The notes under the pieces were generated by a model that searched no databases, was not told where the DNA came from, and saw only the letters and a program-made list of their open reading frames with translations. This document shows, piece after piece, positions 9,122 through 25,964 of a stretch of DNA of 42,681 nucleotides. Every line of letters starts with the position of its first letter. Positions within the stretch are counted from its first letter, which is position 1. The DNA lies in contig JAQBYJ010000041.1 in the NCBI GenBank assembly GCA_027622555.1, forward strand, positions 1-42,681, written 5' to 3'. The position numbers and the translations under genes were made by a program. The DNA is from Verrucomicrobiota bacterium. GTDB lineage: Bacteria > Verrucomicrobiota > Verrucomicrobiia > Opitutales > UBA2995.

Positions 9122-11503
9122 CTAAGGTTGTTTTAGTTGTGGATAGCTAATCCCCAATTGCTCCAGGTAGGTTTCGTATTTAGACGGATCGTAATAGAAC
9201 TCCTTCAGCCGGTCTTTGAACTCAGCCATGATTCCCACATTTTTTTCGATGGCGGGTGGATCGTCATCCGAGATAAAAGGCTGATAGGTTTCTTCTGCGG
9301 TTTGTACGTCCTTGAAATAGGTCCAGGCATCTTTAAGTAACTGTTCGTCCTGCAACATATCCAACATGGTAGCGGCAACAACCTTTGCCCCGGCATTTGC
9401 TCCCTTGTGGGCGATTGGAGTAGCCATGGCCATAGCACTGGACCAGTGATGCGCAATCATTCCACTCACATTTGAAGGATATCTCAATGTTACTGTGGGG
9501 ACGTTCCAGGAAACATCACCTATGTCATCGGAGCCACCAGACACTGGATCTTCTTTGGGTTCACTGATTCCACTCAATTTGGTAGCCAAGCCTTCGATTT
9601 TCTTTACCTTCATGAATTCCTGCAGGGCTTTGGCAAAGATCTGATCATCATCGCTCCATGGAGGCAAACCCACCGCTTTGATATTTTCATCCATGGCAAG
9701 GGCAATGGGTTTGTTAAAGTGGCGCGGGTAGGCAGTTCCAATGATTCTCCTGCTGATAGTCGTATCCGTCATCAACGCCGCGCCTTCAGCCATTTTCTGT
9801 AGTGTGGCAAAGTTTTCACGAATCCCTTCGGCCGTAATTTCACGAATAAAATACCAGACCGTTGCTTTGGAAGGCACGACATTGGGTTGATCGCCACCGT
9901 CTACAATCACGTAATGGGAGCGTTGCAGTGGATGAAGGTGTTCACGTCGAAAATTCCAGCCGACATTCATCAACTCGACCGCATCCAACGCACTTCGACC
10001 CTTCCAGGGAGCTCCTGCGCCATGAGCCGCAACCCCGTCGAAGGTATATTCAACAGAAACCAGTCCAGTCCCGTTGGGATTCCCCCAACTCACATTCATA
10101 TTATTAGCTACGTGAGTGAATAGAACCGCATCTACCTCTTTGAATAAACCGTCACGCGCATACCAAGCCTTGGCGGCGAGAAGCTCCTCCGCAATTCCCG
10201 GCCATATAACAATGGTCCCGGGCAGACCTTCTCGTTTCATCAGGTCCTTTACGGCCATCGCCGCGGTAATAATCACAGCCATACCCGAATTGTGCCCCTC
10301 TCCATGGCCCGGCGCTCCATCGATCATAGCTTGTTGATAAGCGACGCCCGGTAATTGCGAAGCCTTCGGGATACAATCCACATCCGTTCCCAGAGCGATA
10401 ACAGGTTTGCCACTCCCCCACTTCGCCCACCAGGCAGTGGGAATTCCGGATACTCCGTGCTCTACTACAAAATCATTTTTCTTTAACAACTTCGTCAGGT
10501 AGCGTTGGGTTTCAAACTCCTGAAAACCCAATTCAGAAAACGAGAACAGGCTATCGACAATTTCCTGATTCAGCTTGGCGAGATCATCGATTCGATCAGC
10601 AGCTTCCGCTTTTAAACCGGTTAAGGCCTGATGCTCTCTTCGCTCATTCGAATAATCACCAGCAGAGATACGTTCCAAAGTTGCCCGGAGCTTTTTTGGA
10701 TCATCAGCTCCGAGCGAATCCGGTTTATGAACCAACAGCCCGAGCGTTTCTTCCATTTCGCCTGTTCCGCCATTGAGATGCAACTTCTTACCTGTGCCCC
10801 TCACGCGTTTTACAGGTTCATCTCCTTCAGTCAGCCAGTGGGGCCAGATTCGAATAAACTCTGTACCCGCTTCGGCAAATGCTTCAACATCCTGGACCGT
10901 TGGAATAAGTCCCAATTGCTTGGCCTCCGGTAGCAACTTTCTAAAACGTTTCGCCTGCTCCACGCTCCGAACGCCAACCAAGGTTTTTGCAGGATCACCA
11001 TATTCACGAACCACTCGAGCAACCTGTTGATCATAGCTTTCACCTTGTTCTTTCAAATCGAGCAAGAGATCAATTTTACCACGGCAAAGCTGTGCTACTT
11101 CAATCAACGAGGGGATTCTCTCTCCACTAAACCTGCTATCGTAATGTGAACCCGCATCGAGCCGCTGAAGTTCCGCCAGCGTCAATGCATTCGCAGGTCC
11201 TTCTCCATTCGTAGTCCGTTCAAGAGTCGCATCGTGCAAAACAAACAACTGACCATCCTTGCTGGTACGCACATCCACCTCCGTAGCGGTAGCACCCACC
11301 TCGATGGCTCTCACCACGGAAGCGAGTGTGCATTCCGGACGTTCCGCGCTAGCACCACGATGGGCAATGACCTGTGACACCTGGCTCGCCGCCATTATAA
11401 GATCCTGCCTCGAAGCGAAAGAGTCCGATATAAGCCCAGCGAAAAATAGCAAAATTGTAGTCTTTGCAAACAGCTGGTTATTTGGAAGAATAGGAGCATT
11501 CAT
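9122..11503 (-). CDS. Exported GDPD - M20 peptidase fusion (glycerophosphodiesterase + AbgB-like amidohydrolase)
   Basis: A 793-residue exported two-enzyme protein. After a signal peptide (1-30), residues about 44-280 form a glycerophosphodiester phosphodiesterase domain with H48-R49 in IAHRGA, the metal pair E75/D77 in ATEVDVRTS and H90 in FVLHDATLERTT. Residues about 295-790 form an M20-family amidohydrolase like the p-aminobenzoyl-glutamate hydrolase subunit AbgB: ALGTDVDCIPK, GHGEGHNSGMAV, WPGIAEE, FDGVAAHGAGAPWKGRSALDAVELM and a late AHHWSSAMAMATP. All metal-binding motifs of both halves are present, so both could be active. The ATG at 11501-11503 was chosen over an upstream TTG (11579-11581) because it begins a good signal sequence directly. 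The pairing of these two domains is unusual. Substrates are unknown. Confidence 0.85.
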   Translation of the reverse strand: MNAPILPNNQLFAKTTILLFFAGLISDSFASRQDLIMAASQVSQVIAHRGASAERPECTLASVVRAIEVGATATEVDVRTSKDGQLFVLHDATLERTTNGEGPANALTLAELQRLDAGSHYDSRFSGERIPSLIEVAQLCRGKIDLLLDLKEQGESYDQQVARVVREYGDPAKTLVGVRSVEQAKRFRKLLPEAKQLGLIPTVQDVEAFAEAGTEFIRIWPHWLTEGDEPVKRVRGTGKKLHLNGGTGEMEETLGLLVHKPDSLGADDPKKLRATLERISAGDYSNERREHQALTGLKAEAADRIDDLAKLNQEIVDSLFSFSELGFQEFETQRYLTKLLKKNDFVVEHGVSGIPTAWWAKWGSGKPVIALGTDVDCIPKASQLPGVAYQQAMIDGAPGHGEGHNSGMAVIITAAMAVKDLMKREGLPGTIVIWPGIAEELLAAKAWYARDGLFKEVDAVLFTHVANNMNVSWGNPNGTGLVSVEYTFDGVAAHGAGAPWKGRSALDAVELMNVGWNFRREHLHPLQRSHYVIVDGGDQPNVVPSKATVWYFIREITAEGIRENFATLQKMAEGAALMTDTTISRRIIGTAYPRHFNKPIALAMDENIKAVGLPPWSDDDQIFAKALQEFMKVKKIEGLATKLSGISEPKEDPVSGGSDDIGDVSWNVPTVTLRYPSNVSGMIAHHWSSAMAMATPIAHKGANAGAKVVAATMLDMLQDEQLLKDAWTYFKDVQTAEETYQPFISDDDPPAIEKNVGIMAEFKDRLKEFYYDPSKYETYLEQLGISYPQLKQP

Positions 11504-11579
11504 GGCATCCAATTTTGACAAGCTTGTTAGCACAAACGCAAGGAGCCATTTCTCAACAATCAGATATGCGTGTGATTTC

Positions 11580-11614
11580 AATCAGAGTCAAAAGTGCCAC
11601 ATAACAAACGAGCC
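11580..11614 (-). promoter_or_regulatory. Second copy of the shared upstream block (GDPD-M20 gene)
   Basis: AATCAGAGTCAAAAG at 11580-11594 and AACGAGCC at 11607-11614 repeat the block found at 1632-1664 before the ThuA-like gene. Here it lies 77-111 bp before the chosen ATG, but directly before an upstream TTG. It may be a promoter-linked or leader element. The evidence is the 15-mer plus 8-mer match only. Confidence 0.35.
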
Positions 11615-12562: not shown

Positions 12563-14026
12563 CTAAAAGCTACTGTTCTTTTCTGCTAATCGATCACGCA
12601 TTTGCCTGAGAGCGCTTGCGTGGTCTTTCGAACCAGCCAGGTTGGTAAACTCATTCGGGTCGTTGACAATGTCGTATAGCTCCTCGTCTCCCCCAGACCA
12701 ATAATTGTAGCGGTAGTGATTCGTGCGGATGGATTCTCCCATTCTATTTTTATTTCCTACCACCGTGTAAGCTTCCGTCTTCCCTTTCGCGCGGGCAGGA
12801 TCCTTCATCAAACCAGTCAGACTCATACCTTCCAGGTTAGATGGGGCCTTCTCCATTATTCCCGTGAGCTCAGCAATGGTTGGATACAAATCAACAAGCT
12901 CAACCAAGGCATCCGTGCTCTTACCCGCTGAACTTTCGAACCCCGGAGCAGATATTAACAGAGGCACCCGAGCACTATTCTCGAACAAACTGCCTTTCTG
13001 CCACAGAGTATGGTGTCCTAAATTGTAACCATGGTCAGACGTAAAAATGACGACCGTGTTTTTGCGCTGATCCAATCTATCGAGTGTATCCAACAAGCGC
13101 CCCACCTGGTCATCCATAAATGAGACACTGGCATAGTAGGCAGCGAGTGACTGCTTTTGCTGAAGCTCACTCATGCCGTATTTGAGTTCGTTGGCATTCG
13201 TTGCTGCCATGGCTGGAATATCATCGAGGTCCCCCTCAGGAACATAAGGCAATACCGAGTCATCTTCCGGGTATTTATCGAACAGCGACTTCGGAGCAAC
13301 CAAAGGCACGTGAGGTCGCACGAATCCAACAGCCAGAAAGAAGGGTTCGTTTGGCCTTAAAAACTTTGAGTGATCTCCGTCACGAGCTCGACTTTCCAAA
13401 ATCGCTATCGCCTGGTTGGCCGCCAGGATATCGGCCTGGGTTTCAATACGATCATCAGGCACAATGATTCGGGCGAAGTTGGAGCCGTAATGCGCTCTTT
13501 TAGGAGAGAGTAATTCCAAGATTCCAGGACTCGCGGTCTCGGGTGCCATGACGTTGAACGCGCGATCCCAGGAATCGGGCTCATCGCCGCCAGCATCGCC
13601 CGCTTCAATCCCTCCCGGAACACCCATGTGGTATATCTTAGATACCCGGAGTGAGACATAGCCATTGGTGCGCAGCAATTCCCCGATACTCGGGTGATCC
13701 GCTAACGCCGAATTAAGCACCTTATAACTTCCAAGCGTGTAGTCGTTACCCAGCATCTTTGTGCGCTTCGGATACAAACCACTCATGAAGGACGCGCGCG
13801 ACGGCCCGCACACCGGATACTGACAATAGGCCTTGTTGAACTGAACGCCTTCACTGGCCAGACGATCCAGGTTCGGGGTCTGGCAAACCTCGTTTCCGTA
13901 GGAGCCAAGGCAAGCTGTCAGGTCGTCACTGACGATAAACAGAATATTAGGTTTGGCGGCCATAAGAGCCGTGGTTAGACAAGCCAGACCAAGCGAGATA
14001 AAGGCAAAGAGTTTTCTAAAACTCAT
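12563..14026 (-). CDS. Secreted S1 sulfatase, iduronate-2-sulfatase-like
   Basis: A complete 487-residue exported sulfatase. A signal peptide (1-23) is followed by the metal pair D34-D35 in IVSDDLTACLGSYGN, the nucleophile C73-G-P-S-R77 (the CGPSR version common among iduronate-2-sulfatase-like enzymes), a late IFTSDHGYNLGHHTLWQKGS block that supplies Asp and His ligands, and SARVPLLISAPG. The C-terminus keeps the ELYDIVNDPNEFTNLAG signature. It closely resembles the sulfatase at 26003-27406 across most of its length, so the two are paralogues in one window. Expected substrates are 2-O-sulfated uronic acids or similar sulfated sugars in polysaccharides, but this is only by family. It is the first gene of a likely pair with the DUF6090 gene. 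The 234-bp gap before it holds only a small AGGAG/CTCCT hairpin near 14111. Confidence 0.93.
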   Translation of the reverse strand: MSFRKLFAFISLGLACLTTALMAAKPNILFIVSDDLTACLGSYGNEVCQTPNLDRLASEGVQFNKAYCQYPVCGPSRASFMSGLYPKRTKMLGNDYTLGSYKVLNSALADHPSIGELLRTNGYVSLRVSKIYHMGVPGGIEAGDAGGDEPDSWDRAFNVMAPETASPGILELLSPKRAHYGSNFARIIVPDDRIETQADILAANQAIAILESRARDGDHSKFLRPNEPFFLAVGFVRPHVPLVAPKSLFDKYPEDDSVLPYVPEGDLDDIPAMAATNANELKYGMSELQQKQSLAAYYASVSFMDDQVGRLLDTLDRLDQRKNTVVIFTSDHGYNLGHHTLWQKGSLFENSARVPLLISAPGFESSAGKSTDALVELVDLYPTIAELTGIMEKAPSNLEGMSLTGLMKDPARAKGKTEAYTVVGNKNRMGESIRTNHYRYNYWSGGDEELYDIVNDPNEFTNLAGSKDHASALRQMRDRLAEKNSSF

Positions 14027-14260: not shown

Positions 14261-16411
14261 TCATTCAGGCAAGGCGAAGGCGATAACGGCGTCCCCACTG
14301 GGCACCGGCGTTTTAGGCCCTCCTCCTGCGCAGATCACGACATACTGTTTTCCATTCAGCTCAAACACCGCAGGTGTGGCATTTCCGGCGTAGGGCATTT
14401 TATACTCCCACAGCACCTTGCCGGTAGCTGCATCGAACGCTCGCATTTTTTCATCAGCAGTTGCGCCGATGAAAACAACACCTCCGGAAGTCGCGACCGC
14501 CCCACCCCAGTTGAGCGTACCGGTATTTCGTATACCTTTGGCAACGAGGTCCGGGTATTCCCCCAACGGAACCTTCCACTTGATCTCTGCCGTGTTCATA
14601 TTCACGGCAGCCAGACTACCCCAGGGAGGTTTTATGGCAGGGTGCCCTTGATCGTCGAAAAAGCGCTTGTAACCATCCATGAGATAAACGGTTTTCATGG
14701 GCCTTGCCATCCTGTCCATTGGCTTGTCACTGGGATCCCTCAGAAATGCCAGCAAGGCCTGAATATTATCATCCGGCAAATTTTTAAACGGAGGCATGGT
14801 CCCTTTACCCAGACGAATGGACGTAAGGATATCCGTGTCGCTTCTTGCAGATAGGTCCTGCAGTGATGGCATGACAGGTGGCGCACCTTGAAGCTCCAGG
14901 CCATGACAGGCGACACAGTTAGCCTGGTAAAGTAAGCGACCTTTGTTTTCAGGACTGAGTCCTCTATCGTCTAGCAGGGTCGTAACCGGAAGCATATCAA
15001 TCAGGTTGGGCATCTCATTCACGTTCACAAACAGCGTGCGACTGCCGGGATCGAAAGAAGCGCCATGCCATTCCATGCCACCACTCATTCCGGGCAGTTG
15101 CACGGAGGGCTCCAAGCTCGAAGGCGTAAACATTTTCGAGCCCTTGTATTTCTTAAAAACTTCACTCACATAAGCGTGAATCTCAGGTGTTACATCCGAT
15201 AAATCCGCTTCGTTAAATTCCTGACGGACCAAAGCGGGAGGCTTCAACGGATATGGCTGAGTTGGCCACGTTTTTTCGCCGGGTATAGTTGACGGCGGCA
15301 CCGAACGTTCTTCCACTCCAAAAACCGGCTCACCCGTATTGCGGTCGAGGACAAAAATGAACCCCTGTTTCGTGAGCTGAACAACGACATCCCGATCATA
15401 CCCATCTTGCGATATAGTGATGAGGATGGGCGCTGGTGGATTGTCCATATCCCAAATGTCATGGTGTGTTGTCTGGTAGTGCCATATTCGTTTTCCAGTG
15501 CGTGCGTCCAAAGCAAGAACACAGTTTCCAAACAGATTTTGTCCATGCCGATTGGCACCATAAAAATCATAAGTCGGAGAACCCACCCCGGCAAATACCC
15601 ATCCTCGATCTTCGTCGACCGTAAGCCCTCCCCAGGGATTGGCACCTCCGTAAGTTTCCCCTTCAACCCATTCCCAGGTATCGTATCCAAATTCTCCTTC
15701 TTGAGGGATCGTGTGAAAAATCCAACGAAACTCTCCTGTGCGAGCATCCCAGGCACGAATATGACCTGGGGTAGAGCCAAACGTCTCACCTGTCCGCATA
15801 CCTAAAATATAAAGGTCTTCAAAAATGACTCCAGGCGTGGTTGCCGACACAGATACCGGCACATCTCCAGCATCCATATTCTCACCTATATCCACAATAC
15901 CATCCACGCCAAACTCCTGAACCAATTTTCCTGTTTTCGCATGGATAGCATAGAGAGACATTTCCATCGTATAAAACAACCGACCTTCCCCATCTTCTTC
16001 GAAATAAGTAAGTCCCCGATTCACAACCGAATAATTACTGTCAATTTGCTCCTGCGTCCTCGCATCGAAATCCCAAATCTCACGACCCGTTGCCGCGTCC
16101 AAGGCAATAACACGGCCCCCTGGAGAAACTATGTAAAGAAAGCCGTCGATCATCAATGGATTATTCTGAAACACAGAACGGTTGGTATGATCGCCTGTAT
16201 TGAATTGCCAAATGGGCTCCAACAGATGGACGTTCTCCTTGTTTATCTGGTCCAACTCGGAAAACTGGTTCGCACCCTGGTCACCCCGATAGATACCCCA
16301 ATCCCTGTAATTGTTAAAGTCGCTTCGTTTCTGAACGTTTTCAATTTTTCCACAGCCAGCCCAAAGGCCAACAAAGCATATTCCAAGAAGCAGGGAAACA
16401 GGTCTAATCAT
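14261..16411 (-). CDS. PQQ-dependent glucose/quinate-type dehydrogenase with inserted cytochrome c, lipoprotein
   Basis: A 716-residue membrane-anchored quinohaemoprotein. A lipobox (LWAGC, C20) ends the signal sequence. The eight-bladed propeller carries SNYSVVNRGLTY, a GVGSPTYDFYGANRHGQN block and THHDIWDMDNPP (315-326), the motif seen in membrane glucose, quinate and related PQQ dehydrogenases. A cytochrome c domain is inserted near the end of the propeller (about 485-560), with CVACH at 499-503 and a probable axial Met in GTMPPF (M539). The propeller then resumes with LNWGGAVATSGGVVFIGATAD. The enzyme would oxidise a sugar or polyol at the outer face of the inner membrane. The gene follows the enolase-superfamily dehydratase by 18 bp in the same direction, so the two are very probably one operon. 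That suggests oxidation to an acid followed by dehydration. Confidence 0.92.
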   Translation of the reverse strand: MIRPVSLLLGICFVGLWAGCGKIENVQKRSDFNNYRDWGIYRGDQGANQFSELDQINKENVHLLEPIWQFNTGDHTNRSVFQNNPLMIDGFLYIVSPGGRVIALDAATGREIWDFDARTQEQIDSNYSVVNRGLTYFEEDGEGRLFYTMEMSLYAIHAKTGKLVQEFGVDGIVDIGENMDAGDVPVSVSATTPGVIFEDLYILGMRTGETFGSTPGHIRAWDARTGEFRWIFHTIPQEGEFGYDTWEWVEGETYGGANPWGGLTVDEDRGWVFAGVGSPTYDFYGANRHGQNLFGNCVLALDARTGKRIWHYQTTHHDIWDMDNPPAPILITISQDGYDRDVVVQLTKQGFIFVLDRNTGEPVFGVEERSVPPSTIPGEKTWPTQPYPLKPPALVRQEFNEADLSDVTPEIHAYVSEVFKKYKGSKMFTPSSLEPSVQLPGMSGGMEWHGASFDPGSRTLFVNVNEMPNLIDMLPVTTLLDDRGLSPENKGRLLYQANCVACHGLELQGAPPVMPSLQDLSARSDTDILTSIRLGKGTMPPFKNLPDDNIQALLAFLRDPSDKPMDRMARPMKTVYLMDGYKRFFDDQGHPAIKPPWGSLAAVNMNTAEIKWKVPLGEYPDLVAKGIRNTGTLNWGGAVATSGGVVFIGATADEKMRAFDAATGKVLWEYKMPYAGNATPAVFELNGKQYVVICAGGGPKTPVPSGDAVIAFALPE

Positions 16412-16429
16412 AGATGTCGTTTACAGTTT

Positions 16430-17698
16430 TTAGAAATCTCTTACAGATCCATCCTTGGCCTGCAAGTATGGTTGCATCGGAACTTTTCCAAAAGGAATAC
16501 TCGCAGCCTCTGCCTCATCGAAGCTGACTCCCAGTCCGTTCCCTTCCAGGGGAAGAGCATAGCCATCGACAACCGTTGGGAAAGGTCTAACTACTTTTGG
16601 ATCCTGTTCAGCCCGATTCACCCAGCCTCCTTCCATCATGGTTACGTTCGGGATTGCCAATGCGGCATGTAAAGTAGCGGCGGAACCAAGAGGGCCTGCG
16701 TTGTTATGAGGCACCAGGTTGATATAATAGACCTCGGCCATGGCGGCGATTTTCTTCATTTCGCTGATGCCGCCACAATGATTCACATCCGGACGAATGT
16801 AATTTACATACTGCTTTTCAATTGTCTCCCGGCAATCCCACTTACTGTGATACCGCTCACCAATCGCCAGTGGCTGGTCTGTGTGCTCACGCAACCATTT
16901 CAAAGCCTCGGGATTTTCATGGCGGATAGGGTCTTCAATAAAAAAGGGCCGGAAAGGCTTGGCTAACTCGAAAAGTTTTAGAGCCCATTCAGGATCGTAG
17001 CGGCCGTGAACTTCCAGAATCAAATCGACATCCTCACCCACCGCCTCACGCATGGCTTCCAGATACTCGATTTGCTGGTACACTGCGGTCTTGTGGTCGT
17101 GAAAATCATTGGCATCGTGATTATGAAACGCCCGGAAACGTATCGCCGTGATCCCACGCGAAGCTCTCTCCTTGGCCTGAGTTGCCGCTTCCGCAGCTGT
17201 CATTCCGGTCACATGACCATACACTCTGACCGAGGTGCGAGCTAACCCGCCTAGTAACTGATAAACCGGCATACCAGCAAGCTTGCCCTTGATATCCCAA
17301 AGCGCCTGATCAATTCCGGCGATCGCGGTGCCCGTGGACGGTCCTCCCCGTTGGAATCGCCTGCGGAAACAACTCTGCCAGAGGTACTCAATTCGCTGGG
17401 GATCTTCGCCGATCACATAAGGCGACAGATCCTTGAGCATTCCTTCCACGCTATAAGGTAGAAAATGATTGGTCGCATCGCCATACCCCACAATCCCGGC
17501 ATCTGTTTCAATTCGAACAAAGACGTCCCGACCCGTCATGATCGTATCCATTTTGGTGATCTTTATTTTGGGGATCTTGCGATTGGACAAATCGACGGGA
17601 ATTCTTGGTGTGTTGTTCTGAGCAAGCGATGGAGCTGCACCGATGGCCAAAAGGGCACTGCTTCCAGCGAAGGTCTTGAGAAGTTTTCTGCGATTCAT
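16430..17698 (-). CDS. Tat-exported enolase-superfamily acid-sugar dehydratase (galactonate/mannonate dehydratase-like)
   Basis: A 422-residue member of the mandelate racemase/muconate lactonising group. The N-terminus MNRRKLLKTFAGSSALL is a twin-arginine signal, so the protein is exported folded, unlike typical cytosolic homologues. The capping domain spans about 41-160 and the barrel follows. Probable metal ligands are E229 (in LEVHGRYD), E255 (FFIEDP) and E281 (AIGERY), with acid/base histidines H231 and H331 (LVPHNNAGP). The E-x-H-G-R pattern resembles D-galactonate dehydratase, except that Glu stands where that enzyme has Asp. The RPDVNHCGGISEMKKIA segment also fits. It would remove water from an aldonic acid to give a 2-keto-3-deoxy acid. 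It is the upstream gene of a likely operon with a PQQ sugar dehydrogenase. The family is sure; the substrate is inferred. Confidence 0.9.
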   Translation of the reverse strand: MNRRKLLKTFAGSSALLAIGAAPSLAQNNTPRIPVDLSNRKIPKIKITKMDTIMTGRDVFVRIETDAGIVGYGDATNHFLPYSVEGMLKDLSPYVIGEDPQRIEYLWQSCFRRRFQRGGPSTGTAIAGIDQALWDIKGKLAGMPVYQLLGGLARTSVRVYGHVTGMTAAEAATQAKERASRGITAIRFRAFHNHDANDFHDHKTAVYQQIEYLEAMREAVGEDVDLILEVHGRYDPEWALKLFELAKPFRPFFIEDPIRHENPEALKWLREHTDQPLAIGERYHSKWDCRETIEKQYVNYIRPDVNHCGGISEMKKIAAMAEVYYINLVPHNNAGPLGSAATLHAALAIPNVTMMEGGWVNRAEQDPKVVRPFPTVVDGYALPLEGNGLGVSFDEAEAASIPFGKVPMQPYLQAKDGSVRDF

Positions 17699-17744
17699 AA
17701 GTGATTTGAGTAGAATTTTGTACTAAAAAAGGGGGACTTAAGAG

Positions 17745-17808
17745 GTAGAAGCGAGCTTGCTCGCGAATCGAACTCACAAGGATTTTCGCGAGCAAGCTCG
17801 CTCCTACA
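17745..17808. repeat. REP-like doublet, core GCGAGCTTGCTCGC
   Basis: Left arm 17745-17767 (GTAGAAGCGAGCTTGCTCGC plus GAA) and right arm 17785-17808 (inverse, ending GCTCCTACA) are almost perfect complements. Each arm contains the palindrome GCGAGCTTGCTCGC. The arm sequence is very like well-known REP elements of Pseudomonas. It lies between the dehydratase and the TIM-barrel lipoprotein gene. Confidence 0.85.
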
Positions 17809-17824
17809 TTCTTATTCGGCAATC

Positions 17825-18646
17825 TCACAATCTTGATTGGATGGCACGTAATCCTTCAAGGTTTTCCTTGAGAGCGATCTCTGCATCCAGATCACTCTGA
17901 TGACCTAGAATTCCAATAGGGCCGTCGTAGCCGGATTCCTTGATAATCCTTAACAGCGCTTCCTCATGCTCACCCTTGCCCAAGGCCAGTATTTTGGGAT
18001 CAGGATCCGTATTCATTCCGTTCAGATTCAGGCAGTGAAGGTAAGGAAGCATAAGCTCCAAAGATTCCTTAAAATGGGAAATGTGCTCATGACCGTGATG
18101 CAGGTTGTAAACCAGTCCCACATGTTCAGCATCCGTGTTCGCTCGCAGCCAATCTACAACAGCCACCAGATTTTCCGGTTCACCTCCCCAGCCTCCATGG
18201 TTATAAAGGCCAAACTTGCAACCTAGCTCACGTGTTTTTTCAACCAAGGGCAGCAGACTCTTTCCAGCCAACTCCACACGCTCCTCTTGCGAATTTCCCT
18301 GTGGAGATGGTAAGGTCTTCCAGATTTGTGGGTGCAAATCATACTTCTCAAACAGGGCAAACGCTTCGGGGTGCTCTCCCCAGAAAGCAAAATACTCGAT
18401 ACCATATTTCTGGCACATCAAAATCTCTTCCTCAAATTCCGGCACATGTTTTTCACGCCAGTCGTAGGCGAACTTTCGGATTCCAAGCCGCTGTAACATT
18501 TGGGCCCGCTCTTCCGGGGAGCGTTCGTTTTTGTCGAAAGGAACAATACACCAGGCAACCAGATTGTCCTGACGGAATAAGTCGGAGGCAATTTTCTGAT
18601 CAGCGCACCCCGCGACAAAGACCAAAAAGACCATAAGCAGCTTCAT
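17825..18646 (-). CDS. Lipoprotein TIM-barrel sugar isomerase/epimerase-like protein
   Basis: A 273-residue protein of the xylose isomerase-like TIM-barrel group (sugar phosphate isomerase/epimerase family), with an N-terminal lipobox (VAGC, C14), so it is probably anchored outside the inner membrane. Barrel strands are visible as KFAYDWREKHVPEFEEE, YGIEYFAFWGEHPEAF, CKFGLYNHGGWGGEPEN, HVGLVYNLHHGHEHI, LHCLNLNGMN and GPIGILGHQSD. His, Glu, Asp and Asn residues at strand ends fit a divalent metal site. Exported members of this kind are frequent in Verrucomicrobiota and Planctomycetota, where some act on 3-keto-sugar intermediates, but no reaction can be fixed here. REP-like doublets flank the gene on both sides (17745-17808 and 18678-18744), isolating it from its neighbours. 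No Shine-Dalgarno sequence is seen. Confidence 0.85.
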   Translation of the reverse strand: MKLLMVFLVFVAGCADQKIASDLFRQDNLVAWCIVPFDKNERSPEERAQMLQRLGIRKFAYDWREKHVPEFEEEILMCQKYGIEYFAFWGEHPEAFALFEKYDLHPQIWKTLPSPQGNSQEERVELAGKSLLPLVEKTRELGCKFGLYNHGGWGGEPENLVAVVDWLRANTDAEHVGLVYNLHHGHEHISHFKESLELMLPYLHCLNLNGMNTDPDPKILALGKGEHEEALLRIIKESGYDGPIGILGHQSDLDAEIALKENLEGLRAIQSRL

Positions 18647-18677: not shown

Positions 18678-18744
18678 TCGGCAGCAAGCTACCTCCTACA
18701 CTTCGACTTGAAGCCGACAAATGTAGGAGGTAGCTTGCTGCCGA
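18678..18744. repeat. REP-like doublet, perfect 23-bp inverted repeat
   Basis: Arms 18678-18700 and 18722-18744 are exact complements; the right arm begins TGTAGGAGGTAGCTTGCTGC. The core is AGCTTGCT-like rather than GCGAGCTTGCTCGC, while the TGTAGGAG end is kept. The 21-bp loop holds CTTCGACTTGAAG, a further small palindrome. It lies between the TIM-barrel and isochorismatase-like genes and would form a strong hairpin in transcripts of either strand. Confidence 0.85.
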
Positions 18745-18773: not shown

Positions 18774-19625
18774 TCACTTTTTTATCCCCGCAAATACGAA
18801 GGGTTTACCGCCAAGAAAATCCGCACTGGTGATGGTTGGACACCAGTATTTTTCGACATGATCGACGACTAAATCAGTTCCGGAAAAATGGTCCACATAA
18901 GGTGGCATGCGAGAATTATACATCGTATCGGTCAGATCACGCATCAGGAATACATTTTGATCCTGGTAAACCATCTGCCGGATAGAGAATGGCCGCCCCA
19001 AGACGCACATATTCAAATGTACTCCCATAGCGATGACATTGGTGATACCTCGTTGCTTCATCAGGTTATAGGCTTCTGCAGAATCAGTGATCGCGTCACC
19101 GTCTTTTATCTCTATGGCTTCTATCTGACGCGACCATGCTTTATAGTTTTTACACATTGGTTCGTCGTCACAGCCTCCATCAGAATCGTCGATGGGCAAC
19201 GCCGCTTCGTTTTCGGGATCAAGGTGACACCAGGTTTGCAAAGGAACCTTGGCTTCCACAACCGGTGCCGACATAGCCAATTTCCGGGCAGGATGATCTT
19301 TGTAGAAATCCAAAGTATTGCTCGGGCAATGGATAATCAATACACCCTGCTCACGGGCTTTTGAGATAACTGCATTCATCCTGGGAGCCATTTCGGCCAC
19401 TCGCTGCGTTGCACCTTTACACCAGTGTTTATCCCACATGTCACAAACGACAATGGCGGTTTGTTCAGCTACTAAAGTCCTCTTTTCATTCATCAGGCCG
19501 AAGGTGCCATCAGCCGTTTTATTCTGATACCGCGTATTTAAATCCAACTCAGTTGCGACGAGGAGGCTCTCGTTAATGGAAGCTAAAACAAACAGGAAAT
19601 AGAATATTGCCGTAAACTTTCTCAT
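18774..19625 (-). CDS. Exported isochorismatase-like cysteine hydrolase
   Basis: A 283-residue protein of the isochorismatase/nicotinamidase superfamily. The ATG at 19623-19625 was chosen because MRKFTAIFYFLFVLASINES forms a signal peptide at once. An open frame runs up to 19757, but it crosses a REP-like doublet and has no sequence character. The catalytic Asp is D62 in AIVVCDMWDKHWC, and the nucleophile is C207 in MGVHLNMCVLGRPFSIRQM. Between them an acidic cysteine-containing loop (DDSDGGCDDEPMCKNY, 147-162) is longer than in small cytosolic members. The typical core is about 180 residues, so this secreted form has extra loops as often seen in Planctomycetota and Verrucomicrobiota. Substrate is unknown. 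REP-like doublets stand on both sides. Confidence 0.85.
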   Translation of the reverse strand: MRKFTAIFYFLFVLASINESLLVATELDLNTRYQNKTADGTFGLMNEKRTLVAEQTAIVVCDMWDKHWCKGATQRVAEMAPRMNAVISKAREQGVLIIHCPSNTLDFYKDHPARKLAMSAPVVEAKVPLQTWCHLDPENEAALPIDDSDGGCDDEPMCKNYKAWSRQIEAIEIKDGDAITDSAEAYNLMKQRGITNVIAMGVHLNMCVLGRPFSIRQMVYQDQNVFLMRDLTDTMYNSRMPPYVDHFSGTDLVVDHVEKYWCPTITSADFLGGKPFVFAGIKK

Positions 19626-19641
19626 GGGATCTGACACGCTT

Positions 19642-19722
19642 TGTAGGAGCTGCTTCAGCTGCGATGCAAAAATGGTCATTCTTATGAATAGCACTAACAG
19701 ACAATCGCAGCTGTCTCCTACA
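19642..19722. repeat. REP-like doublet, core GCTGCTTCAGCTGC
   Basis: Left arm 19642-19665 (TGTAGGAGCTGCTTCAGCTG plus CGAT) and a shorter right arm 19704-19722 (ATCGCAGCTGTCTCCTACA) are inverse copies, the right one lacking five bases of the core. The core belongs to the same type as at 760-823 and 27523-27545. It fills the gap between the sulfatase at 19758 and the isochorismatase-like gene, which supports the downstream start chosen for the latter. Confidence 0.8.
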
Positions 19723-19757
19723 TTTTTAAAATAGTTATTCGAAATTACAGTGGCCAT

Positions 19758-21092
19758 TCAATTCACCACTTTTGGTAGAGTACCTTGCACGCGATCATAG
19801 TCTATTCTTTTCCCTTGGGACGGATAGGAATCCAGTACCTCCTGAAGTTTCTCACGCGCGCGTTTAACACGGTTGTTTTCGCTCCCTTCTTTGGAAGGTT
19901 TCTTTTCCAGCACATCCTCAATGGCGTCATAGAGATCACCGTTTCCGTAAAGTTTGTAACGCTCATCCCTCGCATAACGTACTTCCCAGTGATTATACAT
20001 TTCGTCAAATTTTTGACTGTAGGGACGAGGGAAATAGTAACCGTAAATAAAATCCCGTTTGGTCCCCTGTTCACCGATACACTGCGGCCAGAAGCTCCAT
20101 CCGTCACCGTCGGAGATGGCCTTGGGAGGCAGGCCAGTCGCTTCCACTATGGTTGGGAAAAAATCCGAGAAGGCAATCAGGTCCTGGTTTAACTGACCTT
20201 GAGGAATGGTACCAGGAAGATTAACGATGAGAGGAACGTGCGTGCCATGATCCTTGGTAAATCCTTTTCCACCTTGAATTTGCTCACCCTTGAATTCCGA
20301 CGTCAGGACATGATTCGTTCCATTGTCCGCTGTAAAGACAACTAAGGTATTCTCCCGTATGCCCAACTCATCCAGTGTGTCTACGATCCGACCAACCAGA
20401 AAGTCTACGTATTGAACCATATCGATGAAGTTCTTCTTATCATCCTTAGACTCTTTGTCAGTACTGTGAGGAGTTGGTGGAAATGGATTATGGGGAAGTA
20501 TCAAAGGGTTATATACAAAAAAGGGTTTATCTTTGTTCTCCTTGATGAAATCCAATAAGAAATTGTTAACTACTGTGGGGCCATAAGATCCTTCAGGCAA
20601 TTCGAGCACCTTGCCATCTTGGTCAATCGACGGGTTCCAATAACGTTCACGCCCGGTAGTGGGCAAATTCCAAAGACAGTAGGTATCGAACCCGGCTTCC
20701 GTTGGCGATATTCCATCGTCATTATTCATCAGCTGCCACTTGCCACCCACCGCCGTTTTGTAGCCATTCTTTTTAAAATGATTTCCGAATGTCGGCTCTC
20801 CTTTGGGGAATATGCCAAAATCCACATAATTAAACACATTGGATTTACCCGTCATCAGATTCACCCGGCTCGGGGTGCACAAGGGAGTTGAATGACAATT
20901 TTCAAATCGTATCCCCTCTTCAGCCAGTTTATCCAATCGAGGCGTCGAATACTCCTTACTGCCATAACTACTGAAGCACTCAAATCCAACATCGTCGCAA
21001 AGAATAAGTACAACATTGAGCGGCTTGACTCCGAAGGTCGAAAGGCTTAAAAAAAGAAAAGTCGTCAGCAGCGTGGTCCAAATACGTATCAT
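19758..21092 (-). CDS. Secreted S1 sulfatase, arylsulfatase A-like (CTPSR)
   Basis: A complete 444-residue exported sulfatase. Signal peptide 1-22 is followed by LILCDDVGFECFSSYG (D33, D34), nucleophile C72-T-P-S-R76, an AVGGKWQL lysine motif, and VVFTADNGTNHVLTSEF with the second Asp-Asn pair. HVPLIVNLPG and KLYGNGDLYDAIED complete the usual layout. It is a clear paralogue of the sulfatase at 27582-28976: both share the segment FDT(Y/F)CLWN, an NPF(P/D)PTP motif and ADNGTN. The pair differs at the formylglycine motif, canonical here and CTSSR there. The substrate is some sulfated glycan unit. Its neighbours are the NHL-propeller gene 57 bp upstream, probably co-transcribed, and a repeat doublet downstream. 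Confidence 0.93.
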   Translation of the reverse strand: MIRIWTTLLTTFLFLSLSTFGVKPLNVVLILCDDVGFECFSSYGSKEYSTPRLDKLAEEGIRFENCHSTPLCTPSRVNLMTGKSNVFNYVDFGIFPKGEPTFGNHFKKNGYKTAVGGKWQLMNNDDGISPTEAGFDTYCLWNLPTTGRERYWNPSIDQDGKVLELPEGSYGPTVVNNFLLDFIKENKDKPFFVYNPLILPHNPFPPTPHSTDKESKDDKKNFIDMVQYVDFLVGRIVDTLDELGIRENTLVVFTADNGTNHVLTSEFKGEQIQGGKGFTKDHGTHVPLIVNLPGTIPQGQLNQDLIAFSDFFPTIVEATGLPPKAISDGDGWSFWPQCIGEQGTKRDFIYGYYFPRPYSQKFDEMYNHWEVRYARDERYKLYGNGDLYDAIEDVLEKKPSKEGSENNRVKRAREKLQEVLDSYPSQGKRIDYDRVQGTLPKVVN

Positions 21093-23777: not shown

Positions 23778-25964
23778 TTACCGTCCATAGACTGGCGGCT
23801 TCCAGTCGTTTGGCAATTTTCCTTGAGGACGAACACCGAGCGAACCTTCAGGAATAGGATGATCTTCCGGTTGTTCAAGAGGTAAATTATCGGGCAGGTG
23901 TTTGATCTTGAAATCCTTGTATTGAATTTTCATCTCAGGGCCCACATGTACCTGGACAGCTAATACCCCGTCCAACGTCCGCCCTGCTTCATCGAAGTCG
24001 AGTAGGTCCGCGGTGGGATGGCCGTCGATCCAGTGTTGGTGATGATTGCCACGAACCAGAACGCGATAGTCGTGCCACTCGCCAGGTGCAAATTCCTTTA
24101 CTGGCATGGTACCGACGACCCAAGGTTGTCCGTCGGGATCGACAATTACTTTTTCGCCGGTGTGCGACAGAATGCGCCTACCCTTTTCTTCATAGAGCAT
24201 GCCGTTGTAGTTGGGGTTGTTGGCGACAACGTCTGCCTGGTAACCGGTCACAATATCCAAACCCAGCTCGGGTGCCATAACTCCGCGATATTGAAGGCCA
24301 CTGTTTCCACCAGGAGTGACTTTCACCTTCACGCGAAGATCGAAGTTTTGGATGGTTGATCCTTTCCAGGAAATGAAACGGTTCATTTTAAGGGAGCCAT
24401 CGGTAACGCCGGTAAGAACACCTCCTTCGCCAGACCAGTATTGTGGATCCCCCGACCAACTTCTGAGAATATTACCATCCAGTAAATCGACAAAACCATC
24501 GGAACCCGGTTTAACGGTGACTGCAGCGGACGCTACGGGGTACGGATCGGTGGACTTGGTAAACGCACCCTTTAGTGGTTCAAGTGGTCCGCCATAAGCG
24601 GTAACCGTTTTGTCGGTACGCTCGCGAAGGTCTTCAAGAACCTTTTTAAACTTCGAGCTACCTACCAGGTTAACCAGCTCGTCGGGATCGTTTTTCAGAT
24701 CATGCAGAAATTCATGCTTACCGTGATCGACATAGCGGACATATTTGTAGCGCTCAGTGCGGATACCTTCATAGGCGGGAATCCGATTCCGCACGGCAAA
24801 GTGTTCATGAAAGGTTTCGGCCCGCCAATCCTTCGGCTTCTTTCCGGAAACCACAGGAGCCAGACTACGTCCCTGGTATCTTTCCGGCACGGGAACGCCT
24901 GCCCAATCAAGGAAGGTCGATGGCAAATCTAGGTTCAATGCCAACGCTTCAGTTTTCTTACCTTGCTGACGGCGAGAAACTCGAGGGTCCATGATTATCA
25001 TGGGCACACCAATGGATTCCTCGTAGTGAGACCACTTGCCTGCAAAACCTCGGTTACCCTTGTGGTAGCCGTTGTCAGCCGTGTAGACGATGATCGTATT
25101 ATCGGCCAATCCGGCTTCTTCCAATGCTTGAACAAATCGACCTATAGCTCCGTCGATACCGCTGACCATGCGGTAATAAGCACGCATGTTGATCTGATAT
25201 TTCTCATCGGTATTCCATCTCCAGAAATAGCGCTCACGATTAATGGTGGTTTTCAAGAAGTCGGGTTGACTATCGAAAATCTCTGGTGTGTCCAAACGGG
25301 GAGGATCGAAGGTAACATCCTCATACATTCCATCCACCGCACGCGGCCAGGGAAAGTGCCCGATGCCTGGACGGCGATCACTATCCTCCGCGTGGCAGGC
25401 GTTGAACCACATGTTAAGAGCAAAGGGTTTGTCTTTGGGTTGGTTCTTCAAGAACTCAATACCCCGATCGACGATGATCTCGGTTTCGTGCCGAAGAGAT
25501 CCGTCAGGCTGTTTTTTATAGAAAGGATTACGAGAGATTGCTTCGAATTCATCAAAGTGATCCTCCGGCTTGTAACCCTGTGGCATTTTAGCATGCCATT
25601 TCCCGAAATACCCCGTACGGTAGCCACGTTCTCTCAGGAGATCCGAGTAAAGTGTCTCCACCGCATCAGCCCGCGCCTGATCGTGATTGCCTGGCGTTCC
25701 ATAACTGCGACCCGTGAGACCAGTAAGAATCGTTGTGCGACTCACCCAGCAAATGGCCTGGCTGACAAATGCATGTTGAAAAAGGGTTCCTCGATCGGCC
25801 AAACGATCAATGTTCGGGGTCTGAACAATTGGATTTCCATAACAGGCCAATGAGTCGGAGGTCTGATCATCCGTGAAGAAGAATACAATATTTGGGGGTC
25901 TTTCGTTAGCAGCGAATAATGCATTCGCGCACAGGACGAACAAGAAAAGGAACTTAGATTTCAT
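23778..25964 (-). CDS. S1 sulfatase fused to a DUF1080 (3-keto-disaccharide hydrolase-like) domain, CWVSR active site
   Basis: A 728-residue exported fusion. Signal peptide 1-18; sulfatase domain about 23-460; DUF1080 domain about 488-700. The sulfatase part keeps D32-D33, GKWH (121-124), TADNGYHKGNRGFAGKW with D297-N298 and K310. Its nucleophile motif reads C72-W-V-S-R76, with Val in place of the Pro or Ala of the formylglycine motif, confirmed in the codons TGC TGG GTG AGT CGC. The DUF1080 part starts FVDLLDGNILRSWSG, then GGVLTGVTDGSLKMNRF, NSGLQYRGVM, GYQADV and GEWHDYRVLVRGNHHQHWID, all usual landmarks of that concanavalin-like domain, which in characterised members attacks 3-keto-glycosides. 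It could couple desulfation to cleavage of an oxidised sugar. Whether the cysteine is converted to formylglycine is open. Confidence 0.92.
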   Translation of the reverse strand: MKSKFLFLFVLCANALFAANERPPNIVFFFTDDQTSDSLACYGNPIVQTPNIDRLADRGTLFQHAFVSQAICWVSRTTILTGLTGRSYGTPGNHDQARADAVETLYSDLLRERGYRTGYFGKWHAKMPQGYKPEDHFDEFEAISRNPFYKKQPDGSLRHETEIIVDRGIEFLKNQPKDKPFALNMWFNACHAEDSDRRPGIGHFPWPRAVDGMYEDVTFDPPRLDTPEIFDSQPDFLKTTINRERYFWRWNTDEKYQINMRAYYRMVSGIDGAIGRFVQALEEAGLADNTIIVYTADNGYHKGNRGFAGKWSHYEESIGVPMIIMDPRVSRRQQGKKTEALALNLDLPSTFLDWAGVPVPERYQGRSLAPVVSGKKPKDWRAETFHEHFAVRNRIPAYEGIRTERYKYVRYVDHGKHEFLHDLKNDPDELVNLVGSSKFKKVLEDLRERTDKTVTAYGGPLEPLKGAFTKSTDPYPVASAAVTVKPGSDGFVDLLDGNILRSWSGDPQYWSGEGGVLTGVTDGSLKMNRFISWKGSTIQNFDLRVKVKVTPGGNSGLQYRGVMAPELGLDIVTGYQADVVANNPNYNGMLYEEKGRRILSHTGEKVIVDPDGQPWVVGTMPVKEFAPGEWHDYRVLVRGNHHQHWIDGHPTADLLDFDEAGRTLDGVLAVQVHVGPEMKIQYKDFKIKHLPDNLPLEQPEDHPIPEGSLGVRPQGKLPNDWKPPVYGR

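Follow-up and report, generated by a model that had tools for sequence, protein, structure and literature searches.

A predicted Tat-exported acid-sugar dehydratase of the enolase superfamily in a sulfatase-bearing Verrucomicrobiota locus

The window, by which we mean the whole 42,681-nucleotide stretch of DNA analysed here, encodes a putative acid-sugar dehydratase of the enolase superfamily (DHT) with a Tat leader. On balance, we favor the view that DHT is a working exported sugar-acid dehydratase, linked to a lactonase and to sulfatases, for which the PQQ-type dehydrogenase encoded next to it would be optional and whose product would be imported to cytosolic aldolases. DHT most likely serves in the breakdown of sulfated glycans, as an exported enzyme that dehydrates sugar acids. 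What can be read from the sequences is the leader, the fold, the catalytic residues, a single leader-bearing branch and an occurrence independent of PQQ. Enolase-superfamily acid-sugar dehydratases are known as cytosolic enzymes. No report of an exported member, or of a PQQ–enolase pairing, was found in the open-licence literature, and passages of PMC8857213 held no lead on PQQ or on an exported dehydratase.

The sequence-only reading had described three genes, for a TIM-barrel protein (ISO), DHT and the PQQ enzyme, as a possible exported route from sugar to 2-keto-3-deoxy acid. All three genes were recovered on the minus strand at the positions it gave, the PQQ start (16411) following the DHT stop (16430) after 18 bp, and chance falls far short of explaining their reading frames and domains. 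Genes in loci were called mechanically, with approximate starts and gaps. The features are as follows:

12563..14026, minus strand: sulfatase downstream of the PQQ gene (PF00884; synteny)
14261..16411, minus strand: PQQ-type dehydrogenase, 716 aa, probable lipoprotein (Cys20) (PF01011, 621 bits; PF13442)
16430..17698, minus strand: DHT, putative acid-sugar dehydratase with Tat leader, enolase superfamily (mandelate racemase subgroup), 422 aa (Pfam MR_MLE_N and MR_MLE_C)
17621..17698, minus strand: Tat leader of DHT, residues 1-26 (read from sequence)
17745..17807, no strand assigned: REP-like palindrome separating ISO from DHT (folded as RNA, -46.6 kcal/mol, z -8.9)
17825..18646, minus strand: ISO, TIM-barrel protein with xylose-isomerase-like fold and lipobox VAGC (PF01261, 41.6 bits)
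18678..18744, no strand assigned: REP-like palindrome separating the isochorismatase-like gene from ISO (folded as RNA, -56.8 kcal/mol, z -10.0)
18774..19757, minus strand: isochorismatase-like gene, which adjoins DHT in sister genome G002 (PF00857, 33.4 bits; synteny)
19758..21092, minus strand: sulfatase whose homologue adjoins ISO in G001, G005 and G004 (PF00884; synteny)

A homologue of the sulfatase at 12563..14026 lies 1.9 kb from PQQ in G005 and 6.3 kb from it in G001. The window also encodes a ThuA protein and a sulfatase with a 3-keto-disaccharide hydrolase domain (DUF1080).

DHT passed the NCBIfam cut-off for galactonate dehydratase PRK14017 (NF010624; 316 bits, cut-off 311) and missed that for D-mannonate dehydratase ManD (NF043051; 278 bits, cut-off 550). 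By Foldseek, its fold matched structures of both families, with 3rr1_B at the top (E 4.6e-38, TM 0.89 on target). The DHT clade, defined by at least 57% identity and a single midpoint-rooted tree, has at least 29 members, the contig scan having kept the best 80 of 146 relatives; for the active site, the clade was set against 37 comparison sequences, namely those of the 52 loci L160-L211 with a blastp-matched ORF. Residues E229, H231, E255, E281, H331 and E356, which we take to include three acidic metal ligands, the acid of the D/E-x-H motif, the His base and the final Glu, are invariant in 29/29 listed members. DHT has the metal and catalytic positions of an enolase-superfamily acid-sugar dehydratase, and with all six invariant it is very probably catalytic. 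The clade signature R-x-R / E-x-H is likewise found in 29/29. Compared with PRK14017 (3rr1/3rra, Ralstonia pickettii), DHT shares the fold and the His/Glu catalytic and metal positions, but differs by its Tat leader, by Glu229 as first metal ligand (Asp there) and by R187-x-R189 (K-x-N in 3rr1). Both active-site differences hold in all 29 listed members, none of which has the Asp and K-x-N arrangement of 3rr1, and the reaction could therefore differ from plain aldonate dehydration. With the ManD subgroup DHT shares the fold and an Arg at the R187 position (alignments to 3thu and 4fi4), but differs by its score, the Glu metal ligand, R189 and the leader. DHT thus keeps galactonate-dehydratase-type catalytic positions, and its clade is uncharacterised.

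The N-terminus of DHT reads MNRRKLLKTFAGSSALLAIGAAPSLA, then Q after the predicted cut, and is a plain Tat leader with a twin Arg, a hydrophobic stretch and small residues ahead of the cut (rule-based call). In the predicted model, pLDDT is <50 over residues 1-34. By a fixed rule supplemented by eye, a leader was called in 19/29 listed clade members and was lacking in the remaining ten. The 19 form one branch with 100/100 support, covering Acidobacteriota, Planctomycetota and Verrucomicrobiota, and the leaderless orthologues fall outside it. DHT is thus probably exported by Tat, as the sequence-only reading had claimed, and export was probably gained once within the clade. The clade is a clean natural experiment: one active site occurs with and without a leader, and the leader is confined to a single branch.

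The idea that exported enolase-superfamily proteins are rare had to be rejected. The window's genome holds 34 enolase-superfamily matches, 32 of them over the cut-off, at 30 loci, which reduce to 28 distinct blastp-matched ORFs (L040 and L061 had none) and, as L054 and L059 are the same ORF, to 27 scored paralogues; 16/27 carry a Tat leader by the fixed rule. One further Tat leader was seen by eye in paralogue L047. When the leader label was mapped onto a wider, quickly built tree, 11 changes were needed, and well-supported branches force at least six of these, suggesting that relocation, or its loss, has been repeated.

A fixed route in which the PQQ enzyme precedes the dehydratase was not borne out, since across sister genomes the presence of one gene does not follow that of the other. 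The window-family PQQ gene, sought with the window protein at E 1e-5, adjoins DHT in 3/29 listed clade members, all in Opitutales family f1, with flanks being short at L150 (right, 147 bp), L134 (left, 126 bp) and L149 (left, 39 bp). The eight genomes of the family divide into three with both genes, two with PQQ only (G001, G006), two with DHT only (G004, G007) and one with neither. Many genomes are fragmented, and genes may have been missed in G004 (88% complete, 900 contigs) and in G002 (75%). G358 and G360 have a Tat DHT orthologue and marginal PQQ-family matches (best E 6.4e-4 and 6.0e-5). In G002 and G005 the pair is kept, with identities of 78-80% (PQQ) and 86-91% (DHT). The gap of 18 bp in the window corresponds to 72 bp in G002, and in G005 to 12 bp if counted to the earliest possible start or ~57 bp if counted to the start that homologues suggest; such short gaps suggest one transcript. 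When 34 enolase and 14 PQQ genes were shuffled among an assumed 5,200 genes, a neighbour pair arose in 16.9% and a co-directional one in 8.8% of cases (13.8% and 7.1% with 11 PQQ genes), and the adjacency alone is not beyond chance. A general DHT–PQQ operon is weakened by the 3/29 count and by the independent occurrence in the eight genomes; among the 29 listed members, no conserved PQQ–dehydratase operon was found outside one genome family. The partnership looks like a local arrangement.

A dedicated two-step exported route, in which the PQQ enzyme makes the acid that DHT then dehydrates, is consistent with the 18-bp gap on a shared strand, with the retention of the pair in G002 and G005 and with the PQQ protein itself, in which the catalytic Asp and Lys are present and whose nearest NCBIfam type is the glucose/quinate/shikimate one. 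It also gains from L155 (Poribacteria, leaderless), where a cut-off BamB-like propeller gene of another subfamily, found by Pfam, lies 0.55 kb downstream (PQQ_2 59.6 bits; PF01011 27.3 against a cut-off of 26.7). We nevertheless consider this route unlikely, given that the genes are apart in 4/8 sister genomes, that the PQQ family is beside so few listed members, that the adjacency is not rare by chance and that no pqqC match clears the cut-off, as described below.

A looser relationship, to which we assign slightly less than an even chance, is that PQQ, DHT, the TIM barrel and the sulfatases are separate exported tools that act on different sugars of one sulfated glycan. Gene order and presence vary, from sulfatase-isochorismatase-ISO-DHT-PQQ in the window to sulfatase-ISO-DHT-PQQ in G005, sulfatase-ISO-PQQ in G001 and isochorismatase-DHT-PQQ in G002; ISO and PQQ are also found together where DHT is absent, namely in G001 and, in the form of paralogues, at C21; and REP-like hairpins set ISO apart from both of its neighbours. 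The short DHT–PQQ gap in all three paired genomes, however, speaks against mere co-membership.

The PQQ protein has a cytochrome c domain inserted at residues 489-558. Its assignment as a lipoprotein stands as probable, with Cys20 in WAGC, though the lipobox is atypical (Trp at -3), and in the G006 orthologue Tyr replaces the lipobox Cys. D321 and K348 align with D295 and K322 of 1kv9, presumably the catalytic Asp and the PQQ-binding Lys, making the window protein a PQQ dehydrogenase in the wide sense. It is not a membrane glucose dehydrogenase of the TIGR03074 type (457 bits, cut-off 833): it shares the propeller core and the catalytic Asp and Lys, but the match begins at profile position 148, and the window protein has no N-terminal membrane part, contains the inserted cytochrome c and probably has a lipid anchor.

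No genes for PQQ synthesis were found to accompany the PQQ genes. No pqqC match exceeded the cut-off in 88 related genomes (two scored weakly, at 63.8 and 45.3 of 240 bits), whereas with this model 6/288 genomes of the phylum had pqqC over the cut-off, all in family f30; the best pqqE match in the window's genome reached 63.6 of 381 bits. PQQ would therefore have to come from outside. A natural lack of dehydrogenase activity in the PQQ protein, the organism making no PQQ, would fit these absences, but seems quite improbable: the genome retains 14 PQQ-family matches (about 11 of them solid, the weak ones being two pieces at C100, and C76 and C37 near E 1e-3), the window copy retains its catalytic Asp and Lys, and PQQ scavenging occurs in other bacteria, as in E. 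coli, which has Gcd and takes up PQQ. Relying on PQQ made elsewhere would tie the organism to other bacteria much as a vitamin requirement does.

ISO, which the sequence-only reading had placed just upstream as an isomerase, is indeed there, with Cys14 in a VAGC lipobox, but 126 bp from DHT and with a strong REP-like hairpin in between. Its AlphaFold2 model (pLDDT 89.7) matches 3cqi_A with Z 20.4, and phmmer with ISO returned no solved relative. Xylose-isomerase-like TIM barrels bind their metal through Glu, Asp, His and Glu. At the corresponding E, D, H and E positions of 4ovx, ISO has Y148, L178, M211 and L247 (the profile match being weak, E 0.0016). It lacks the ligands of a metal-dependent sugar isomerase or epimerase, and "isomerase" is a fold label only.

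A better clue than the PQQ and ISO neighbours is a Tat lactonase-like amidohydrolase (PF04909) near DHT in two phyla. In G007 its gene starts a further 468 bp downstream of DHT, and both run in one direction with an MFS gene and a sulfatase; in the Acidobacteriota genome L151 it is divergent from DHT and ~30-50 bp away. Both proteins are nearest to L-fucono-1,5-lactonase (97.1 and 88.2 bits, short of the cut-off of 400). This neighbour occurs at 2/28 clade loci, the window not among them; within the window's genome, 0/16 PF04909 matches lie within 5 kb of any of the 34 enolase-superfamily matches. That genome does have a lipoprotein homologue of the amidohydrolase at C97 (111.5 bits), and at C179 a PQQ gene and a Tat-leader amidohydrolase are neighbours, 0.7 kb apart. 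The neighbours of leaderless DHT orthologues name no substrate.

The claim that every step is exported held as far as the dehydratase, but not for the aldolases. None of the 14 matches (8 + 5 + 1) to families able to take a 2-keto-3-deoxy acid has a leader. Among these matches there is no exported aldolase to complete the route and, with it, no sign of a non-phosphorylative Entner-Doudoroff pathway with its aldolase in the same exported compartment. No 2-keto-3-deoxy acid transporter was identified.

In the explanation that we favor, the sulfatase cluster would free sugars, which exported oxidation and an exported lactonase would turn into acid, the PQQ enzyme being one possible, replaceable oxidant that needs PQQ from outside. 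Acting outside the cytoplasm, DHT would then dehydrate this acid, of the aldonic or uronic type, to a 2-keto-3-deoxy acid, which would be imported and cleaved by the leaderless cytosolic aldolases. We infer the reaction, the substrate, the lactonase and sulfatase link and the import from the invariant catalytic positions, the fully supported Tat branch, the PRK14017 score and the fold matches, from the amidohydrolases of G007, L151, C97 and C179, and from the leaderless aldolase-family genes and the co-directional G007 cluster. The Glu ligand with R-x-R, the missing transporter and the small number of lactonase-linked loci count against it.

A published cytosolic analogue is in SAR202, with a lactonase (COG3618), an enolase-type dehydratase (COG4948) and aldolases (PMC10444878). 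The non-phosphorylative sugar-acid pathways reconstructed in PMC10444878 and PMC6946804 resemble our case in the lactonase, enolase-superfamily dehydratase and aldolase classes and in the large paralogue set, but have NAD(P)-dependent dehydrogenases where a PQQ-type enzyme is found here; in both texts, "periplasm" and PQQ are absent and "signal peptide" is used for archaellin only.

Alternatively, the exported chemistry may be of the 3-keto-glycoside kind (oxidation, then elimination or hydrolysis) rather than Entner-Doudoroff, with ISO and PQQ taking part and DHT added. As described in passages of PMC9007349, that pathway (LacABC/DUF1080, BT2157-type) involves exported sugar oxidation, with DUF1080 in periplasmic 3-keto-glycoside hydrolysis, and has neither an enolase-superfamily step nor a PQQ enzyme. 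The window's DUF1080 sulfatase and ThuA protein would suit it, as would the YcjR (3-keto-glucoside 4-epimerase) fold of ISO, which is shared with many others. A Tat Gfo/Idh/MocA dehydrogenase follows PQQ in two sister-genome clusters (G001, 3.6 kb; G005, 0.5 kb), with BT_2158 glycoside 3-dehydrogenase as best NCBIfam match (475.3 and 472.6 bits, missing the cut-off of 750). However, the window has no room for a Gfo/Idh gene between PQQ and the next sulfatase, and ISO is without the metal ligands of its fold, leaving this reading somewhat unlikely.

More broadly, and doubtfully, Verrucomicrobiota, Planctomycetota and Acidobacteriota may have moved the first steps of non-phosphorylative sugar-acid breakdown (oxidation, lactone opening and dehydration) outside the cytoplasm, with Tat capturing enolase-superfamily enzymes repeatedly and with cells importing 2-keto-3-deoxy acids, not sugars, as a result. 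Provided that the enzymes are active there, bacteria living on sulfated glycans may convert sugars to acids and keto-acids ahead of uptake, with consequences for how their carbon uptake is modelled and for what their neighbours can take.

The closest named relatives are uncultured Verrucomicrobia and Opitutales assemblies. The genome (6.0 Mb in 238 contigs) contributes here, from contig C41, a stretch rich in sulfatases, in which the enolase-superfamily gene (DHT), the PQQ-type dehydrogenase gene (PQQ) and the TIM-barrel gene (ISO) lie in the following order of transcription:

19758-21092, minus strand, sulfatase
18774-19757, minus strand, isochorismatase-like gene
17825-18646, minus strand, ISO, TIM-barrel gene
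16430-17698, minus strand, DHT, enolase-superfamily gene
14261-16411, minus strand, PQQ gene
12563-14026, minus strand, sulfatase

The gap between DHT and PQQ is 18 bp, as the sequence-only reading had it, and the export signals it assigned were also found: a Tat leader on DHT and a lipobox Cys on both ISO and PQQ, the latter less typical (WAGC). Elsewhere in the window, one 728-aa protein (23778-25964) combines sulfatase and 3-keto-disaccharide hydrolase (PF06439) domains, and glycerophosphodiester phosphodiesterase and M20 peptidase domains share a single frame at 9122-11581; the counterpart of its first part is a 287-aa protein in G005, and G001 has a lone M20 peptidase (both genomes of the same Opitutales family, f1).

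By its anatomy, DHT is predicted to be a dehydratase. It narrowly passes the NCBIfam galactonate dehydratase model (316 bits, cut-off 311) and falls under that for D-mannonate dehydratase (278 versus 550 bits). The AlphaFold2 model has a mean pLDDT of 85.6, with residues 1-34 below 50, and a structure search ranked 3rr1 first (TM 0.89 on target, 36% identity), followed by D-mannonate dehydratases. In the 3rr1 alignment, H231, E255, E281, H331 and E356 fall on identical residues, whereas E229, R187 and R189 replace Asp, Lys and Asn. All eight positions are invariant (29/29) in the window protein and its 28 orthologous loci, a clade size that is a lower bound, since members were drawn from the best 80 of 146 relatives. 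In 37 other relatives, position 229 is Asp in 30 and Glu in seven, position 187 is Lys in 35 and Arg in two, and position 189 is mixed. The clade thus looks like a single conserved, uncharacterised functional type, and galactonate is not a suitable name for its substrate.

In a 34-row tree of cores without leaders, the clade was recovered with 100/100 support. Within it, 19 Tat-bearing rows from Acidobacteriota, Planctomycetota and Verrucomicrobiota (one, L145, with phylum not named) form a single branch (100/100); the ten leaderless rows belong to Chloroflexota (five), Poribacteria (three), Latescibacterota (one) and Bacillota (one). A single gain of the leader would explain this distribution, with leaders judged by rule and by eye. 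The leader is present in 19/19 branch members despite protein divergence down to ≈65% identity, and such retention speaks for genuine export in this branch. Of the 27 distinct enolase-superfamily paralogues scored in the window's genome, 16 carry Tat leaders under a fixed rule, and in a quick 72-row tree the leader label needs 11 changes, at least six forced by starred branches. The open-licence literature searched showed no earlier account of an enolase-superfamily dehydratase that is exported, and this predicted exported dehydratase is the real find of the locus. Two Tat-bearing orthologues have esterase-type genes in their vicinity: a glucuronyl-esterase-like gene 4.4 kb upstream (L139, 2435-3541) and an acetyl-xylan-esterase-like gene 0.2 kb downstream (L064, 1605-2801).

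The PQQ enzyme is closest to the glucose/quinate/shikimate type, far under that type's cut-off. It has a cytochrome c domain and no membrane part, and retains the catalytic Asp and the Lys of PQQ enzymes; "sugar dehydrogenase" is a plausible name. The genome has 14 PQQ-dehydrogenase matches and no pqqC, and its pqqE match reaches 63.6 of 381 bits. None of 88 related genomes had pqqC over its cut-off, the two weak hits scoring 63.8 and 45.3 of 240 bits; across the phylum 6/288 genomes did, all of family f30, so the search was able to detect it. The organism is therefore predicted to be a PQQ scavenger, and the enzyme would rely on scavenged PQQ. A second PQQ protein in the window (3542-5650), of the methanol/ethanol type (TIGR03075, 651.9 versus 480 bits), has a C-terminal cytochrome c domain.

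The link between PQQ and DHT is local. Among the eight genomes of family f1, both genes are present and adjacent in G000 (the window's own), G002 and G005; G001 (82%; one contig, 97% complete) and G006 (80%) have the PQQ orthologue without DHT, G004 and G007 the reverse, and G003 neither. Across the clade, a window-type PQQ gene is seen beside DHT in 3/29 members, those of the three genomes with both, and 27 of the 28 loci carry at least 1 kb on the flank where it would sit. Counting against this tally, a leaderless Poribacteria DHT orthologue is followed, 0.55 kb downstream, by a BamB-like propeller gene that the contig end truncates (L155, 9712-10464; PQQ_2 59.6 bits, PF01011 27.3 with cut-off 26.7). 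Two further genomes with a Tat-bearing orthologue, G358 and G360, gave only marginal matches to the window's PQQ family. When gene order was randomized (34 enolase and 14 PQQ matches, 5,200 genes assumed), at least one enolase–PQQ neighbour pair arose in 16.9% of trials, or 8.8% if co-directional. PQQ has another partner, ISO: the two genes adjoin in G001, which lacks DHT, and paralogues of both are likewise side by side on contig C21. We consider the proposed two-step route from PQQ enzyme to dehydratase possible but rather unlikely, and do not prefer it to a reading in which the genes are simply neighbours within a glycan cluster.

ISO and PQQ could also be explained, without DHT, by periplasmic 3-keto-glycoside hydrolysis, a process proposed in the literature (PMC9007349). 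A Tat Gfo/Idh protein nearest the BT_2158 glycoside 3-dehydrogenase (475.3 and 472.6 of 750 bits) is encoded downstream of PQQ in G001 (3.6 kb) and G005 (0.5 kb), and the window encodes a ThuA protein as well as a sulfatase that carries a 3-keto-disaccharide hydrolase domain. The ISO model (pLDDT 89.7) has the fold of sugar 3-epimerases; its best structural match, 3cqi_A (Z 20.4), is tied with others, and 5b7y, 4ovx and 6wn6 are among the matches listed. Its earlier designation as an isomerase is doubtful: against 4ovx, a weak profile match (E 0.0016), Y148, L178, M211 and L247 replace E, D, H and E. In nine ISO homologues, Y148 and M211 are invariant (9/9), position 178 is L, I or M, and 247 is L or I. 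An ISO-like domain also ends a 603-aa protein (L251, 1483-3294, G036) whose first part has no Pfam match. The ISO gene is flanked on both sides by REP-like palindromes (17745-17807 and 18678-18744) that fit a single pattern, with stems that differ yet still pair (four half-sites seen, 0.03 expected); the pattern resembles REP elements of Pseudomonas.

Two rows of genes in the window's genome may encode cytosolic routes. L240 (2006-7695) has sodium:solute symporter, sulfatase, leaderless aldolase, Rieske protein and amidohydrolase genes, possibly a lactone/acid route with its own transporter; L241 (6907-10904) has a leaderless aldolase, a leaderless enolase-superfamily gene and a sodium:solute symporter, a putative cytosolic counterpart. 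A cytosolic lactonase–dehydratase–aldolase chain is described for SAR202 (PMC10444878). None of 14 aldolase-family matches that could follow DHT (eight PF00701, ordinary DapA included, five PF03328 and one PF01081) has a leader.

A better pathway clue than the PQQ link is an exported amidohydrolase. A Tat-leader amidohydrolase (PF04909) lies 468 bp downstream of DHT in G007, adjoins DHT divergently in an Acidobacteriota locus (L151), and adjoins a Tat-bearing ISO relative in G006; the sole NCBIfam match of the first two is L-fucono-1,5-lactonase, below cut-off. A lipoprotein homologue is encoded on contig C97 of the window's genome (37% identity, 111.5 bits), and on C179 a PQQ gene adjoins a different exported amidohydrolase, for which 4-sulfomuconolactone hydrolase is the closest match (73.6 of 500 bits). 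These pairings, in few loci each, fit an exported pathway in which oxidation, lactone opening and then dehydration would take place outside the cytoplasm.
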